Part shown: piece after piece, positions 1 through 45,169 of the stretch
How the letters are laid out: each line of letters begins with the position of its first letter
Position numbering within the stretch: the first letter of the stretch is position 1
Assembly: GCF_018619335.1 (NCBI RefSeq)
Contig: NZ_JAHHDX010000076.1
Span: 577-64,576 of the forward strand
DNA: 64,000 nt
Reading direction: 5' to 3'
Source: Alteromonas sp. ALT199
Lineage (GTDB): Bacteria > Pseudomonadota > Gammaproteobacteria > Enterobacterales > Alteromonadaceae
The notes under the pieces: generated by a model
Seen by the model: the letters and a program-made list of their open reading frames with translations, nothing else
Told to the model about the DNA's origin: nothing
Database searches by the model: none
Position numbers and translations under genes: made by a program

Positions 1-138
1 GAAGGCAAGTGCGGCGAAGGTAAATGTGGCGGCGACAAGAAAGCTGACAAAGAAGGTAAGTGCGGCGAAGGCAAATGTGGCGGAGACAAGAAAGCAAAGG
101 AAGGAAAGTGTGGCGAAGGTAAATGCGGTAGTATGTAA
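1..138 (+). CDS. hvfA: Cys-rich RiPP precursor, HvfA-like (5' end outside window)
   Basis: Open from the window edge to a TAA stop, giving the last 45 residues. They contain six EGKCG motifs in three EGKCGEGKCG pairs separated by short Lys/Asp linkers, ending GSM. This is the repeat seen in HvfA-type precursors, whose cysteines are modified by a DUF692/DUF2063 enzyme pair to copper-binding thiooxazole-type groups (family knowledge). The two matching enzyme genes lie directly downstream, which strongly supports the assignment. The start, signal peptide and total number of motifs lie outside the window. A non-modified metallothionein-like protein is the main alternative. Confidence 0.8.
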   Translation, partial: EGKCGEGKCGGDKKADKEGKCGEGKCGGDKKAKEGKCGEGKCGSM

Positions 139-206
139 TCGCCATTTTAATAACATCGCGTAGCATTAATTTAAATGATGTAAGACTTCGCGGTTAACGC
201 TTAACA

Positions 207-237
207 AAAAATGGCTGTCGAATGATGGCCATTTTTG
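207..237 (+). terminator. Hairpin between precursor and modification genes
   Basis: AAAATGGC and GCCATTTT arms enclose a loop of about 13 nt, and the descending arm ends in a short T run. It lies in the 151-bp gap between the precursor stop and the DUF692 gene. A leaky terminator here would let the precursor be made in excess over its enzymes, a common RiPP arrangement; that role is inferred. Confidence 0.5.
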
Positions 238-289
238 TCAGATGAGCACATAGCAATGTTGCAATCCCAAGCGGTAAAAAGGGGAAGAT

Positions 290-1141
290 ATGAAAAACAT
301 CAATGGCGCAGGTCTGGGGTTTCGTCGGGAAATGCTAAAAGAGCTTTTACCAACGTTGCCATCTGAGGTCGATTTTTGGGAAGTAGCACCTGAAAATTGG
401 ATCCCGCTTGGCGGTAAATATCAAAAACAATTTCAGCAAGCATCTTCGCAGGCTTCCTTTACAACTCATGGTTTATCATTGTCTATAGGAAGTAGCGACA
501 AACTAGATGTTGAGTTTATAAAAACCGTTAAGCAATTCTTAGATACCAACGATATTGCTCTGTACAGCGAGCACTTAAGCTTTTGTTCAGGGAATGGCCA
601 CATGTATGATCTGATGCCAATTCCCTTCACTGAAGAAGCAATCACTCATGTGGTCTCTCGCATCCGTCAAGTTCAAGATATTATCGAAAGACCGCTGGTC
701 TTGGAAAACGTTTCTTATTACATTGCACCAGGCCAAGAAATGGACGAACTTGAATTCACTACAAATATATTGAGGGAATCGGGGTGCCAAATGCTTCTCG
801 ACGTAAACAATGTGTATGTAAACAGCATAAACCACAAATATGATGCAAAAACGTTTATTAACGGCTTACCTTCGGACAAAATCGTCTATGGGCATATTGC
901 CGGTCATTATGACGAAGCTGAGGATTTAAAAGTTGATACACATGGGGCAGATGTAATTGAGCCAGTATGGGAGTTACTGGAGTATGCCTATCTTAGCCAC
1001 GGAGTGTTTCCGACTTTGTTAGAGCGTGATTTTAATATTCCTCCTTTAAGCGAATTGTTAGCTGAAGTTCAGAAGATTAAGCATATTCAATCAAGATGTA
1101 CTGCTTCCCGGTCGTCGGACATCAAAGGAAGTGTCGCGTGA
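290..1141 (+). CDS. hvfB: DUF692 family multinuclear iron oxidase (MNIO), HvfB-like
   Basis: 283 residues, the usual size for the DUF692/MNIO TIM-barrel family. These enzymes hold two or three iron ions and oxidise cysteines in RiPP precursors using a partner protein. Family motifs are visible: GAGLGFRREM at the N terminus, VAPENW (about 32-37), THGLSLSIGS (about 59-68), SEHLSF (about 93-98), LENVSYY (about 138-144), LLDVNNVYVN (about 169-178) and HIAGH (about 202-206). These supply the His, Glu, Asp and Asn metal ligands expected of the family. The ATG start has a GGGGAAG ribosome site just upstream. The stop overlaps the next gene's GTG start (GTGA), so the two are probably translationally coupled. 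Likely substrate: the EGKCG-repeat peptide encoded upstream. Confidence 0.9.
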   Translation: MKNINGAGLGFRREMLKELLPTLPSEVDFWEVAPENWIPLGGKYQKQFQQASSQASFTTHGLSLSIGSSDKLDVEFIKTVKQFLDTNDIALYSEHLSFCSGNGHMYDLMPIPFTEEAITHVVSRIRQVQDIIERPLVLENVSYYIAPGQEMDELEFTTNILRESGCQMLLDVNNVYVNSINHKYDAKTFINGLPSDKIVYGHIAGHYDEAEDLKVDTHGADVIEPVWELLEYAYLSHGVFPTLLERDFNIPPLSELLAEVQKIKHIQSRCTASRSSDIKGSVA

Positions 1142-1902
1142 CTCAGTCATTTCAAACTACGCAAAAAGTATTCGTTAGCGCGATCAAAGATCCGCGAACT
1201 TATCGCGACAGTGACAGTGATAACGCTCGTCGGATGAAGATCTATCAATCACTTTTTTTCAATAATATAGACAATTTTGTTAGCACAGGGTTTCCGGTTT
1301 TACGATCTATTGTATTGAAGTTATATGGTGAGAAAGGATGGGAGAGCATTGTGCGTCAGTTTTTTATTGAGCATGAATGCCGTTCGCCCTATTTTTCCGA
1401 GATCAGTAAAGAGTTTGTAGAATACCTTTCAACAGAGCCGAACCTCGATATCGTTTTACCCGCTTTCACCGCGGAACTAGCTCACTATGAATGGCTAGAG
1501 CTTGATGTCAGTATAAGAAAAAACCAAGAGAATATTGAGTTTTATACTCCAGATCATATTGTTACTGCTATAAGTGTATCGCCGTATGCTTCGTTAGCAG
1601 CGTACCACTACGAAGTTCATTTGATTGGAGAGGATTACATGCCTGAGCATCCCTCACAGGTACAACAATTCTATGTAGTATATAGAGACAGTGATTTTGA
1701 CATACAGTTTGCTCACGTTAATCCTGTCACTGCTATTTTAGTCAATACGCTTGAACAAAGTGACCAGGGAATGAAGATAGAAGAGTTAGCTGAATCTTTG
1801 AGCCAACAACTTCCACAAATACCTTCGAACGCACTAGTAAATGGCATGAATCAAACTCTTACCGAAATGTTACAAAAAGGAATATTGATTCCAATATCCT
1901 AG
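1138..1902 (+). CDS. hvfC: DUF2063 (BufC/HvfC-like) RiPP partner protein
   Basis: 254 residues from a GTG start at 1138, which overlaps the DUF692 stop as GTGA and follows an AAGGAAG ribosome site at 1125-1131. The frame is open further upstream (to 1096), but that extension overlaps hvfB and is not needed. The N-terminal half fits a DUF2063 domain: YRDSDSDNARRMKIYQSLFF, then FVSTGFPVLRSIV. The C-terminal part is the family's second domain. DUF2063 proteins bind the precursor and form a complex with the DUF692 enzyme. No DoxX-like hvfD gene follows; the next 270 bp are non-coding. Confidence 0.87.
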   Translation: MTQSFQTTQKVFVSAIKDPRTYRDSDSDNARRMKIYQSLFFNNIDNFVSTGFPVLRSIVLKLYGEKGWESIVRQFFIEHECRSPYFSEISKEFVEYLSTEPNLDIVLPAFTAELAHYEWLELDVSIRKNQENIEFYTPDHIVTAISVSPYASLAAYHYEVHLIGEDYMPEHPSQVQQFYVVYRDSDFDIQFAHVNPVTAILVNTLEQSDQGMKIEELAESLSQQLPQIPSNALVNGMNQTLTEMLQKGILIPIS

Positions 1903-12069: not shown

Positions 12070-12133
12070 GGTAATCAGGTAATCAGGTAATCAGGTAATC
12101 AGGTAATCAGGTAATCAGGTACTCAGGTACTCA
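12070..12133 (+). repeat. Eight tandem copies of an 8-bp unit
   Basis: Six perfect copies of GGTAATCA (12070-12117) followed by two copies of the variant GGTACTCA (12118-12133). Because the unit is 8 bp, all three frames cycle through the same codons. TAA recurs on the plus strand and TGA on the minus strand, so the array is non-coding. It ends 113 bp before the bacteriocin-like start codon and about 29 bp upstream of a possible -10 box (TATAGT, 12163-12168). Confidence 0.97.
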
Positions 12134-12246
12134 GAACAGGTCTTTTTTCTAATTTTTACAGATATAGTGTTTTCGTCAACGCATCTACATTTCAAGGAAA
12201 TTAATGTATTGGTAGTGCTTTAACATATTAACTGTAAGGAAAAATC

Positions 12247-12561
12247 ATGGAAAGAGACATAAATTTAAATGGGCACGAGCTTTCACAAGAAGAGCTAGAA
12301 CAGGTCAGCGGAGCATGGATTGCTAATATTATAGGCGCTTTTGCAGGAGCCGTTGGAGGCGTTTATGGCGCGGCTATAGCAGGCGGTGGTGGCGCTAGTT
12401 CTAAATCCCTATGGTCAGCAGGTTTAGTTGGTGCAGGTGCTGGCTTTTTCAATCCGGTGGGTAGCGTTGGGCGTTTAGCTGGTTCTGTAGGTTTAGGGTT
12501 AGGCGGTGGTGCGATAGGTAACGCCGTTGATTCTCAGTATGAGGAAACGACAGACGAGTAA
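12247..12561 (+). CDS. Class II bacteriocin-like peptide with double-glycine-type leader
   Basis: 104 residues. The first 23 fit a leader cleaved by a peptidase-containing ABC exporter: acidic, with ELSQEELEQVSGA and cleavage expected after Gly-Ala. The mature part begins WIANIIGAFAGAVGG and is very rich in Gly and Ala with many GxxxG spacings, typical of membrane-inserting class II bacteriocins or microcins. The tail is acidic. TAAGGA lies about 6 bases before the ATG. A small hydrophobic gene follows, a normal place for an immunity gene. No exporter gene is nearby, so export would rely on one elsewhere. A non-toxic Gly-rich secreted peptide is possible. Confidence 0.72.
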   Translation: MERDINLNGHELSQEELEQVSGAWIANIIGAFAGAVGGVYGAAIAGGGGASSKSLWSAGLVGAGAGFFNPVGSVGRLAGSVGLGLGGGAIGNAVDSQYEETTDE

Positions 12562-32570: not shown

Positions 32571-32600
32571 AAAAACCCCCGGAAGTTTCCTTCCGAGGGT
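32571..32600 (-). terminator. Attenuator terminator of the his operon
   Basis: On the minus strand ACCCTCGGAAG-GAAA-CTTCCGGGGGT followed by TTTTT. It sits between the His-rich leader peptide and hisG. Upstream, GGAAGG (32641-32646 complement) and CCTTCC (32626-32631) form a competing hairpin; the latter can also pair with the GGAAGG of the terminator arm, giving the classic 1:2 + 3:4 versus 2:3 choice. Confidence 0.9.
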
Positions 32601-32663
32601 CGAGAATTTTTCTATCTGCGCCGTTGGAAGGAAATATAGACCTTCCAGCACGAACCTGAAAGG

Positions 32664-32708
32664 TTATGCTTTGTGATGGTGGTGATGTTTCGCTGCGCAG
32701 TTAATCAT
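32664..32708 (-). CDS. hisL: his operon leader peptide
   Basis: 14 residues, MINCAAKHHHHHKA, with five consecutive His codons. It lies just before the attenuator hairpins and the his structural genes. Ribosome stalling at the His codons when charged His-tRNA is scarce would favour the antiterminator. This is the standard his leader organisation, seen directly in the sequence. Confidence 0.93.
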   Translation of the reverse strand: MINCAAKHHHHHKA

Positions 32709-43496: not shown

Positions 43497-43729
43497 CTAG
43501 AATAATAAATTTCGACCTGCAAGCGATAATGTTTGCAAAAGAACTCTTTCGTAAAACTCTTGTGATACTTTTGGGATACCTTCAATACATACTCGATTTT
43601 GACATTAGGTGAGTTTCATTTAAGTCACATCTAAGAAATTTTGTTTTAACGATTTTGAAATGATTCGAGTTGAGTCTCGGTCTGCATATTCAAATCAAAA
43701 TATAAATTAATAAATAAATCGAGGACATC

Positions 43730-44431
43730 ATGAAAATTCGTAACTCATTCCTAGCAGGGGCTTTGCTAACTTCGTTAAGCAGTGTTTCTCAAGCCGCCGA
43801 CCTAACAATTGAAATACAAAATCTAACGCAAGGTATTTACTACACCCCGTTTCTAGTGGCGGCTCACACCCCAGAAGCTTCATTATTTGAACTGGGTGAA
43901 GCCGCAACTGATGAGCTCACAATGATGGCTGAGGGCGGTGATGTTAGTGGGTTAGTTAGTCTTGTGGATGGCCTCGACGGTAACGTTGCCGAAGTGCAAG
44001 GTGAATTAACTGCTCCAGGAACTACGCGTACATTTATGTTAAGTACTGACGATGCAAATACAGCACTTTCAATAACTGCAATGTTGCTACCTACCAACGA
44101 CGGTTTCGTAGGGCTTGATAACTGGGATATTCCAACCGAAGCGGGCACTTACACAGTATTTCTTAATGCTTACGATGCAGGTACGGAAGCAAATGATGAA
44201 ATACGCGGAAGCGGCGCTGTGGGTGAAGCGGGTATGCCTGTTCCACCACCACTTGACCCGCTGCTAGGAAGTAACGGTACGGGTGTAACGACTGAAGAGG
44301 ATAACGAAACTGTCCATATTCACAGAGGTAACTTAGGTGACTCAATGGAAGACGGTGGTAGCAGTGACGTTAACAGCACTATTCAGCGTTGGTTAAACCC
44401 TGTTGCCAAAGTAACCGTTACCGTGCAGTAG
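43730..44431 (+). CDS. Exported spondin_N domain protein
   Basis: 233 residues. Signal peptide ending SQA-AD, then a spondin_N fold: LTIEIQNLTQGIYYTPFLVAAH and ASLFELGEAATDELTMMAEGGD, with LSTDDANTALSITAMLLPTNDGFVGLDNWDI cut into short blocks rich in Asp and Thr. The domain is a beta-sandwich with a metal site, known from eukaryotic F-spondin and common in marine bacterial secreted proteins; the ligand is unknown. The 3' end has a His motif VHIHRGN and the C terminus KVTVTVQ. Confidence 0.87.
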   Translation: MKIRNSFLAGALLTSLSSVSQAADLTIEIQNLTQGIYYTPFLVAAHTPEASLFELGEAATDELTMMAEGGDVSGLVSLVDGLDGNVAEVQGELTAPGTTRTFMLSTDDANTALSITAMLLPTNDGFVGLDNWDIPTEAGTYTVFLNAYDAGTEANDEIRGSGAVGEAGMPVPPPLDPLLGSNGTGVTTEEDNETVHIHRGNLGDSMEDGGSSDVNSTIQRWLNPVAKVTVTVQ

Positions 44432-44440
44432 GAGATTGTC

Positions 44441-45169
44441 ATGTTATCCAATTTAGGAATCAAAAAGTCAAGACTTGCGCTGGGTATGATATCAGTATTG
44501 GCTCTAGCAGCATGCGGCAGTGATAATGACTCGCCCAGTTCAGATGTAGAGCCAACACCTACGCCAACAGTAACAAGCGTTTACCAAGTGACGGTGACAA
44601 ATTTAACCAATGCTCAACCTTTTTCTCCTGTGGCTGTAATTCTTCACAGTGAAGATAAACTGTGGGAAATCGGTAGCCCCGCTTCCGAGGAATTAGAATA
44701 CGTCTCTGAAGGTGGAGACAATAATTTTGTCCTTGGCTTACCATTTGTTGAAGTTGGTGAGAGTGGTGTGGGCTTGATATTACCGGGCGCATCAGAAAGC
44801 ATCGAAATTGCTATCGACGACAATGATAGTGCATTGATTAGCGTGGCTACCATGCTAGTGAATACTAACGATGCTTTTACTGGCTTAAATGCTGTATCGC
44901 TAGCTGGTTTGGAAGTGGGTGAGTCGATGAGTTTCAGGGCTGGAACATACGATTCAGGTACCGAAGCCAATTCTGAAGCTGCAGGTACTATGCCTGGTCC
45001 AGCAGACCCAGGTGGCGAAGGCTTCAATGCATTAAGAGATGATGTGGATTTCGTTTCAATGCACCCTGGTATTGTTTCACAACAGGATGGTCTATCAACG
45101 TCAGTGTTAACTAAGCAACATGGCTTTGACAACCCTACGGCTAAAATCTCGATTTCTCGAGTAGAGTAG
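44441..45169 (+). CDS. Spondin_N domain lipoprotein
   Basis: 242 residues. Lipobox LALAACGS makes it a lipoprotein anchored at Cys25. After a Pro/Thr linker (PTPTPTVTS) the domain repeats the upstream pattern: YQVTVTNLTNAQPFSPVAV, LWEIGSPASEELEYVSEGG and MLVNTNDAFTGLN. It is a diverged tandem copy of the previous gene, 9 bp downstream and probably co-transcribed. The two-component genes follow after a terminator. Confidence 0.88.
   Translation: MLSNLGIKKSRLALGMISVLALAACGSDNDSPSSDVEPTPTPTVTSVYQVTVTNLTNAQPFSPVAVILHSEDKLWEIGSPASEELEYVSEGGDNNFVLGLPFVEVGESGVGLILPGASESIEIAIDDNDSALISVATMLVNTNDAFTGLNAVSLAGLEVGESMSFRAGTYDSGTEANSEAAGTMPGPADPGGEGFNALRDDVDFVSMHPGIVSQQDGLSTSVLTKQHGFDNPTAKISISRVE

Follow-up and report, generated by a model that had tools for sequence, protein, structure and literature searches.

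The hvfABC locus of Alteromonas sp. ALT199

We analyzed a 64,000-nucleotide (nt) stretch of the Alteromonas sp. ALT199 genome (contig NZ_JAHHDX010000076.1, positions 577 to 64,576; here called the window) that opens on the 3' end of a peptide precursor gene, hvfA, followed by hvfB and hvfC (Table 1). The evidence below supports the prediction that these genes form an HvfABC-type locus, a member of the published oxazolin/Buf_EGKCG/captophorin family and ordinary in itself. The new part, and the one worth following, is a promoter signature that ties hvfABC to unlinked envelope-redox genes. Clusters of this kind make copper-binding peptides with 5-thiooxazoles, the oxazolin and the captophorins (PMC13419390, PMC12668002), and the product of one in Microbulbifer has been named bulbicupramide (PMC12538549). 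By analogy with the characterized relatives, the Alteromonas peptide would share this chemistry and bind copper.

An initial annotation, made from the sequence alone, had proposed an HvfABC-type pathway at the window edge, with a precursor end carrying six EGKCG motifs, a DUF692 enzyme of the multinuclear nonheme iron-dependent oxidative enzyme (MNIO) family and a DUF2063 partner in that order, the two enzyme genes overlapping stop to start. The layout proved to be as described, with the tetranucleotide GTGA forming a 4-nt overlap between the hvfB stop and the hvfC start, and the HvfB and HvfC profile searches that the annotation had proposed agreed with it. HvfB scored 431.5 bits against the NCBIfam equivalog NF003818 (cutoff, 360) and 341.2 bits against PF05114 (cutoff, 25), HvfC scored 261.1 bits against the NCBIfam equivalog NF050145 (cutoff, 142), and the visible precursor end passed the cutoff of the HvfA-family domain. 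The HvfA equivalog NF050188 (cutoff, 95) was reached neither by the visible precursor (37.3 bits) nor by a complete relative (57.2 bits). Because the precursor lies above the first precursor model and below the second, we place it in the HvfA family broadly defined, outside the Haemophilus equivalog. Methanobactin MbnB was rejected as an identity for HvfB, at 36.5 bits versus a cutoff of 325.

The HvfB active site is intact, a point on which the initial annotation had been prepared to see its assignment fail. Residues H60, H95, E139, D171, N173, N174, H202, H206, D216, H218, E245 and D247 were invariant in 121 of 121 distinct sequences, our own included, and R12 was kept in 120 (sequences shorter than 200 amino acids [aa] were dropped from this set). 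Residue roles were assigned by alignment with 3BWW and from residues and motifs given in PMC13419390 and PMC12668002, rather than by aligning the HvfB and FonB sequences; by this mapping, the invariant residues match published iron ligand, catalytic base and substrate contact positions.

HvfB-family matches were present in 113 of 146 genomes, counting our own, with 86 above the cutoff. The closest named matches include those of A. portus, A. marina and A. abrolhosensis (89 to 90% identity). Among 58 same-genus genomes besides our own, 52 had a match and 6 did not; the same-genus locus set used below also numbers 52, being 51 fetched loci plus our own, with one genome (G022) left out because its match ends at the contig end. 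From a second set of 80 named loci, we left out 10 in which no precursor was found. In eight of these, hvfB starts less than 400 nt from a contig end; one locus (L095) has full flanks, yet no precursor was found there. The named-locus and unnamed-locus sets overlap in genomes and were not summed.

Several observations concern the surroundings of the cassette. Many draft contigs end 1 to 2 kb upstream of hvfA, so that upstream flanks are often short. Of five same-genus loci examined for it, three (L143, L137 and L168) have an rRNA operon no more than about 3 kb ahead of the cassette, which may explain the frequent contig ends there. One locus (L141, in genome G025) has hvfB in two pieces with an internal TAG stop and is likely a decayed copy. 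Between hvfC and apt lies an open reading frame (ORF) for a predicted 40-aa membrane peptide; it had no NCBIfam match, and tblastn matched it in 52/52 same-genus and 53/80 named loci.

The HvfA precursor and its repeats

The window opens inside hvfA, whose start, signal-like sequence and promoter precede it on the contig. The start is readable in the further 576 upstream positions, where MKQIKKSAVATALGAVVIGSLASTVAVADVNPFGMQALESGYSQFAAEGKCGEG is followed by a run of N of about 98 codons that leads into the window. Read by eye, its N terminus (MKQIKKSAVATALGAVVIGSLASTVAVA) resembles a signal peptide, as the initial annotation had expected to find upstream, rather than marking a signal-less precursor of an unrelated family. 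hvfA thus has at least seven EGKCG motifs, six of them within the window. The length of the N run may be an estimate, as the frame is broken by a comparable gap at locus L162. Across the 4.63-Mb genome, a degenerate codon pattern for EGKCG had seven matches, every one in hvfA and on one strand, and none when read backwards. Comparison of all pairs among the six window units gave 34 synonymous and no nonsynonymous codon differences. The units thus differ only synonymously, which indicates that selection acts on the amino acid sequence and that the repeats are no recent copying artifact.

All 52 same-genus loci have an ORF for a KCG-repeat precursor ahead of hvfB. The 50 gap-free precursors of this set are 100 to 192 aa long and carry 4 to 16 EGKCG motifs, and 447 of the 502 motif spacings listed for them are 5, 11 or 12 residues, giving units of 16 to 17 residues. 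The leader pattern F-x2-5-L-x1-3-GY was found in 50 of 50 distinct precursors, and an AxA-like site ahead of N(P/L)F was found in 48. The initial annotation had given four motifs for the Haemophilus HvfA and had suggested that the stoichiometry might differ here, a remark that rests on a wrong count: the Haemophilus peptide has three doublets, hence six motifs and six modified cysteines (PMC13419390). With six in Haemophilus and 4 to 16 among same-genus relatives, six motifs are not unusual. Family cutoffs, gene order, the signal-peptide-like start, the leader motif and the intact catalytic residues together argue for the HvfABC identity that had been proposed.

A promoter signature shared with unlinked genes

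Alignment of the regions upstream of hvfA revealed a sharply conserved TGAAAT-N17-GGTCT element, described by the signature TGAAA(T/G)-N17-GGTCT. We counted sites over the ten core letters with a spacer of 17 and at most one mismatch. All 52 same-genus loci had the site upstream of hvfA (43 exact and 9 with one mismatch), and so did 64 of the 70 named loci, 57 of them with an exact copy. Among the six named loci that were exceptions, L118, L119 and L121 are distant, and L107 has the site with a spacer of 16. Shuffled upstream regions gave exact sites at 0.1 to 0.3% and sites with at most one mismatch at 0.5 to 1.5%.

In the ALT199 genome, TGAAAT-N16-18-GGTCT occurs 18 times, versus 5 times in a reversed control. 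Five of these sites precede hvfA, msrP, a glutathione reductase-like gene (gor), a TonB-receptor gene and a Spondin_N gene; another five lie before other or very short ORFs, five are inside ORFs, and three have no downstream gene after filtering. The msrP product scored 482.6 bits against NF003767 (cutoff, 207). By eye, an msrQ-like gene follows msrP in our genome, and a TVP38-like gene follows the TonB-receptor gene in two genomes. Four other genomes had 22 exact sites, among them sites before hvfA in all four, before msrP in two, and before a TonB-receptor gene, doxX and gor in one each. Also among the 22 were sites before two peroxiredoxin-like genes (one named by eye), a DsbC-like gene and a response regulator gene (both by eye).

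We scanned orthologues of msrP, gor, the TonB-receptor gene and the Spondin_N gene on the matched strand, taking the best 30 loci per search. The counts cannot be treated as independent trials, since the genomes are related to one another and the sets include our own genome and G010, from which the genes had been chosen. Upstream of msrP, the site was exact in 24 of 30 loci and present with at most one mismatch in 29. The TonB-receptor gene had it in 28 of 28 loci (25 exact) after two loci of 31 to 32% identity (L419 and L420) were dropped, with 0 to 2 hits at other spacers. For gor, 12 of 30 loci were exact and 15 had at most one mismatch, again with 0 to 2 hits at other spacers. Across orthologues the sequence of the spacer varies while the promoter cores stay. 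In the same-genus genomes without hvfB, msrP could be scanned in five of six, and all five had the site (two exact and three with one mismatch), which indicates a regulon independent of hvf.

The exact copy of the signature within the window stands before the Spondin_N gene, which is followed by a related gene.

An unlinked DoxX gene

The initial annotation had noted that an hvfD-like DoxX gene was not downstream of the cluster and might lie upstream or be missing. A hidden Markov model (HMM) search of the flanks found no doxX in our hvf locus, and among 162 hvfB loci it found doxX in the flanks of two, the distant gammaproteobacterial loci L118 and L121. A third genome, G118, has a doxX about 0.8 kb from its hvfB. 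The HMM came from an imperfect seed (21 of 32 proteins) and later recovered 40 of 40 doxX genes. The cluster is thus without doxX, as suspected, but the gene is not missing from the genome: there are two DoxX genes, both on contigs other than the hvf contig, one of them of the hvf type. This 203-aa DoxX is 54 to 55% identical over 192 residues to hvf-adjacent DoxX on Moraxella and Acinetobacter plasmids, and the second shows 33% identity over about 105 residues to the Moraxella/Acinetobacter hvf-linked DoxX. The DoxX of the gonococcal cluster has 149 aa, and neither of our two resembles it well; at least two DoxX types therefore accompany such clusters. In complete relatives (e.g., G010, G018, G023, G027 and G041), the long doxX and hvfB lie hundreds of kilobases apart.

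The long doxX also carries the promoter signature. Of 43 loci drawn from across the genus, the family and the order, 25 had a site with at most one mismatch, versus 0 to 3 at other spacers. The typical variant has GTTCT for GGTCT and mostly lies 59 to 75 nt from the start codon. The paralogous short doxX, used as a control, had the site in 0 of 28 loci (3 of 31 were dropped by length and other filters).

Possible role of the shared promoter

We found a bipartite promoter with fixed spacing common to several transcription units, as expected for a regulon of an extracytoplasmic function (ECF) sigma factor. Set beside the general ECF promoter consensus, the nonpalindromic pair of elements with its fixed 17-nt spacer looks like an ECF sigma promoter in shape. 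The sharing suggests an envelope-redox regulon of ECF sigma type that includes the copper peptide. Homologous clusters are known under such control. In Haemophilus influenzae, all four genes of a DoxX/COG3220/DUF2063 cluster, which we read as hvf, are induced by hypochlorous acid (HOCl) only with the ECF factor RpoE2 (PMC7907618). Neisseria SigE controls a homologous cluster together with msrAB (PMC2893595), and Caulobacter SigF controls homologous clusters together with a YedY gene (PMC3511200). Each case includes a methionine sulfoxide reductase or YedY gene.

From the gene identities, active-site residues, repeat anatomy and promoter signature, we propose a three-gene captophorin (oxazolin-type) pathway transcribed from a shared ECF-type promoter as part of an envelope stress response, and we put the probability of this reading at about three in four. 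The hvfA product would be a precursor exported by the Sec route, its leader conserved and its numerous cysteines set in EGKCG repeats. HvfC would bind this leader, and HvfC and HvfB, an iron enzyme, would together oxidize each Lys-Cys to a 5-thiooxazole; the exported peptide may then sequester Cu(I) in the periplasm. The operon would be transcribed from TGAAA(T/G)-N17-GGTCT as an ECF sigma-type promoter, common to the unlinked msrP, TonB-receptor and long-type doxX genes and, in part, gor. Since the promoter is common to envelope-redox genes, the peptide would most likely be made in an envelope oxidative or metal stress response under an unlinked sigma factor.

We also lean, with less confidence, toward a wider version in which the Alteromonadales captophorin system is scattered over the genome and held together by one promoter and its ECF-type sigma factor. 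Its members would be hvfABC, the hvf-type doxX, msrP with its msrQ-like gene, the TonB-receptor gene with its TVP38-like gene and, in some clades, gor. If so, the copper peptide would be a component of the response to envelope oxidants, such as reactive chlorine, which could explain the failure of copper alone to induce the homologous Microbulbifer genes.

Several results weigh against this proposal. At spacers other than 17, sites with at most one mismatch reached 10/52 same-genus and 11/70 named hvfA loci (at N12), and 0 to 6 of 30 msrP loci, with the highest count again at N12. The 22 exact sites in the four other genomes compare with 7 in the reversed control (9 versus 3 in G010, 7 versus 0 in G092, 4 versus 3 in G106 and 2 versus 1 in G063), and 9 of the 22 have no gene or an unknown gene behind them or lie inside an ORF. 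Sharing by gor is limited to half of its loci, the site before the long doxX was exact in only 4 of 43 loci, and our own copy has one mismatch. The Spondin_N orthologues had the site in 1 of 30 loci, our own, so we do not count this gene in the regulon. None of the 15 Sigma70_r2 genes in our genome has a credible upstream site; at one (L230), a one-mismatch site overlaps the start codon of the gene itself. As to the inducer, meningococcal SigE did not respond to hydrogen peroxide, diamide, singlet oxygen or sodium dodecyl sulfate-EDTA (PMC2893595), and the homologous Microbulbifer proteins were undetected with or without added copper (PMC12538549). These last two reports imply that an oxidant inducer is not general.

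The strongest alternative, which we consider unlikely, is that TGAAA-N17-GGTCT serves a different regulator, or a housekeeping sigma factor such as RpoE, and that the genes sharing it form no dedicated regulon. That none of our Sigma70_r2 genes has a credible site fits this view. The Acinetobacter and gonococcal cluster sigma factors showed only generic ECF similarity to 10 of the 15 sigma ORFs, and an HMM built from these 10 detected the Acinetobacter factor, its positive control, but no ECF gene in the flanks of hvf. The element was, moreover, first found by inspecting hvfA upstream regions, and msrP, gor and the TonB-receptor gene were chosen because the site is present in our genome and in G010. 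However, orthologues carry the site in genomes that played no part in choosing the genes, an rpoE-like gene (L225, named by eye) is without it, and the nonpalindromic elements keep a spacing of 17 nt around a variable spacer sequence. A literature search found no paper uniting TGAAAT, GGTCT and a sigma factor, with most subscription journals outside its coverage.

Copper acquisition is a more doubtful alternative, in which the peptide would be released as a chalkophore and, once loaded with copper, reimported by the coregulated TonB-dependent receptor. The promoter stands before the receptor gene in every locus kept, and the receptor is similar, below cutoff, to heme and siderophore receptor models. 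However, the precursor is long and of Sec type, no exporter or protease was seen by eye among the flanking ORFs read, the remaining promoter sharers are redox enzymes, and published relatives are tied to excess-metal or HOCl stress (PMC12668002, PMC7907618).

Two other assignments of the genes are very improbable. HvfB matches the bufferin maturase model, and the MNIOs of the bufferin and HvfA groups share one similarity cluster (PMC12452194), but a Buf1/Buf2 cluster is hard to reconcile with a score of 262.6 bits, below the BufB cutoff of 310, in a protein that passes the HvfB cutoff, and with a precursor that carries EGKCG repeats and has no Pfam match such as DUF2282. An equally slight case can be made for HvfC as a DNA-binding regulator, since Pfam still describes DUF2063 as putatively DNA binding, but the equivalog model that HvfC passes is that of the HvfC RiPP maturation protein, published as the required partner of HvfB (PMC13419390).

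Other features of the window

Farther along the window, an ORF of 104 aa has a double-glycine-like leader (ELSQEELEQVSGA) and is preceded, at a distance of about 110 bp, by an 8-nt repeat (GGTAATCA) present in eight copies. The ORF appears bacteriocin-like by eye and had no Pfam or NCBIfam match. Copy number changes in the repeat could tune its expression. The window also holds a histidine operon leader.

Table 1. Positions of the features discussed, numbered from the first letter of the window
Feature	Position	Strand	Evidence
hvfA 3' end, EGKCG-repeat RiPP (ribosomally synthesized and posttranslationally modified peptide) precursor gene	1-138	+	NF050137, 72.2 bits versus 19.5 (window 1-135)
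Six EGKCG motifs forming three doublets; 51- and 48-nt units	1-129	+	Tandem Repeats Finder, period 51
hvfB, MNIO (DUF692) peptide maturase, 283 aa, ATG start	290-1141	+	NF003818, PF05114
hvfC, DUF2063/RiPP recognition element partner protein, 254 aa, GTG start	1138-1902	+	NF050145, PF09836, PF22106
Predicted membrane peptide ORF, 40 aa	2174-2296		tblastn matches in relatives
8-nt repeat, eight copies	12070-12134		
104-aa ORF	12247-12561		
Histidine operon leader	32571-32688	-	Rfam RF00514, 64.3 bits versus gathering score of 49
Exact hvfA promoter signature	43656-43683		
Spondin_N gene, followed by a related gene	43730-45169		

Comparison with known systems

About 2,000 EGKCG precursors have been collected (PMC12452194), and a literature search whose coverage left out most subscription journals found no paper joining MNIO, copper and Alteromonas. 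The closest described system is the oxazolin pathway, hvfABCX, of nontypeable H. influenzae (PMC13419390), which is alike in its precursor, MNIO and DUF2063 genes, its EGKCGEGKCG doublets and its Sec-type precursor. In Haemophilus, however, DoxX is linked and there are three doublets, whereas in Alteromonas DoxX is unlinked and the number of doublets varies within the genus. In the H. somni homologue 3BWW, the stretch between the GHIAGH and DTHG motifs is longer by about 23 residues than in the Alteromonas HvfB.

The bulbicupramide genes, mmrABC, of marine Microbulbifer (PMC12538549) share the three-gene layout, the lack of a nearby protease, the two-Cys cassettes and the conservation across a marine genus. 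DoxX goes unmentioned in the main text of that paper, in line with the DoxX-less cluster here. Unlike in Alteromonas, the peptides have 5 to 8 Cys and no shared promoter is described in the sections examined; its authors detected no expression and were hesitant about a copper-protective role. Among the clusters called Buf_EGKCG or oxazolin type 1, a few contain oxidored_molybd or ferric-reductase genes (PMC12452194), which we read as msrP and msrQ and thus as the same partnership by physical linkage; in Alteromonas, msrP is tied to the cluster solely through the promoter.

The gonophorin cluster of Neisseria (PMC12668002, PMC2893595) resembles ours in its EGKCG precursor, MNIO, DUF2063 protein and, if our reading holds, ECF control. 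It differs in that the cluster itself holds the 149-aa DoxX, an ECF sigma factor and a small anti-sigma factor, and in its promoter, GTMAGBWTT-N12-13-CGTCTAAH (PMC2893595). The Caulobacter SigF regulon (PMC3511200) likewise places MNIO clusters and a YedY gene under one ECF sigma factor, but with DUF2282 bufferins, the promoter GTAACC-N16-CGAA and a response to heavy-metal (chromium) stress. In Alteromonas, a promoter common to a methionine sulfoxide reductase gene and other envelope redox genes offers a concrete hypothesis on the conditions under which the peptide would be produced, and it supplies reporters and candidate partners, such as the unlinked DoxX and the TonB receptor. A published parallel to this sharing is the control by HOCl in H. 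influenzae.

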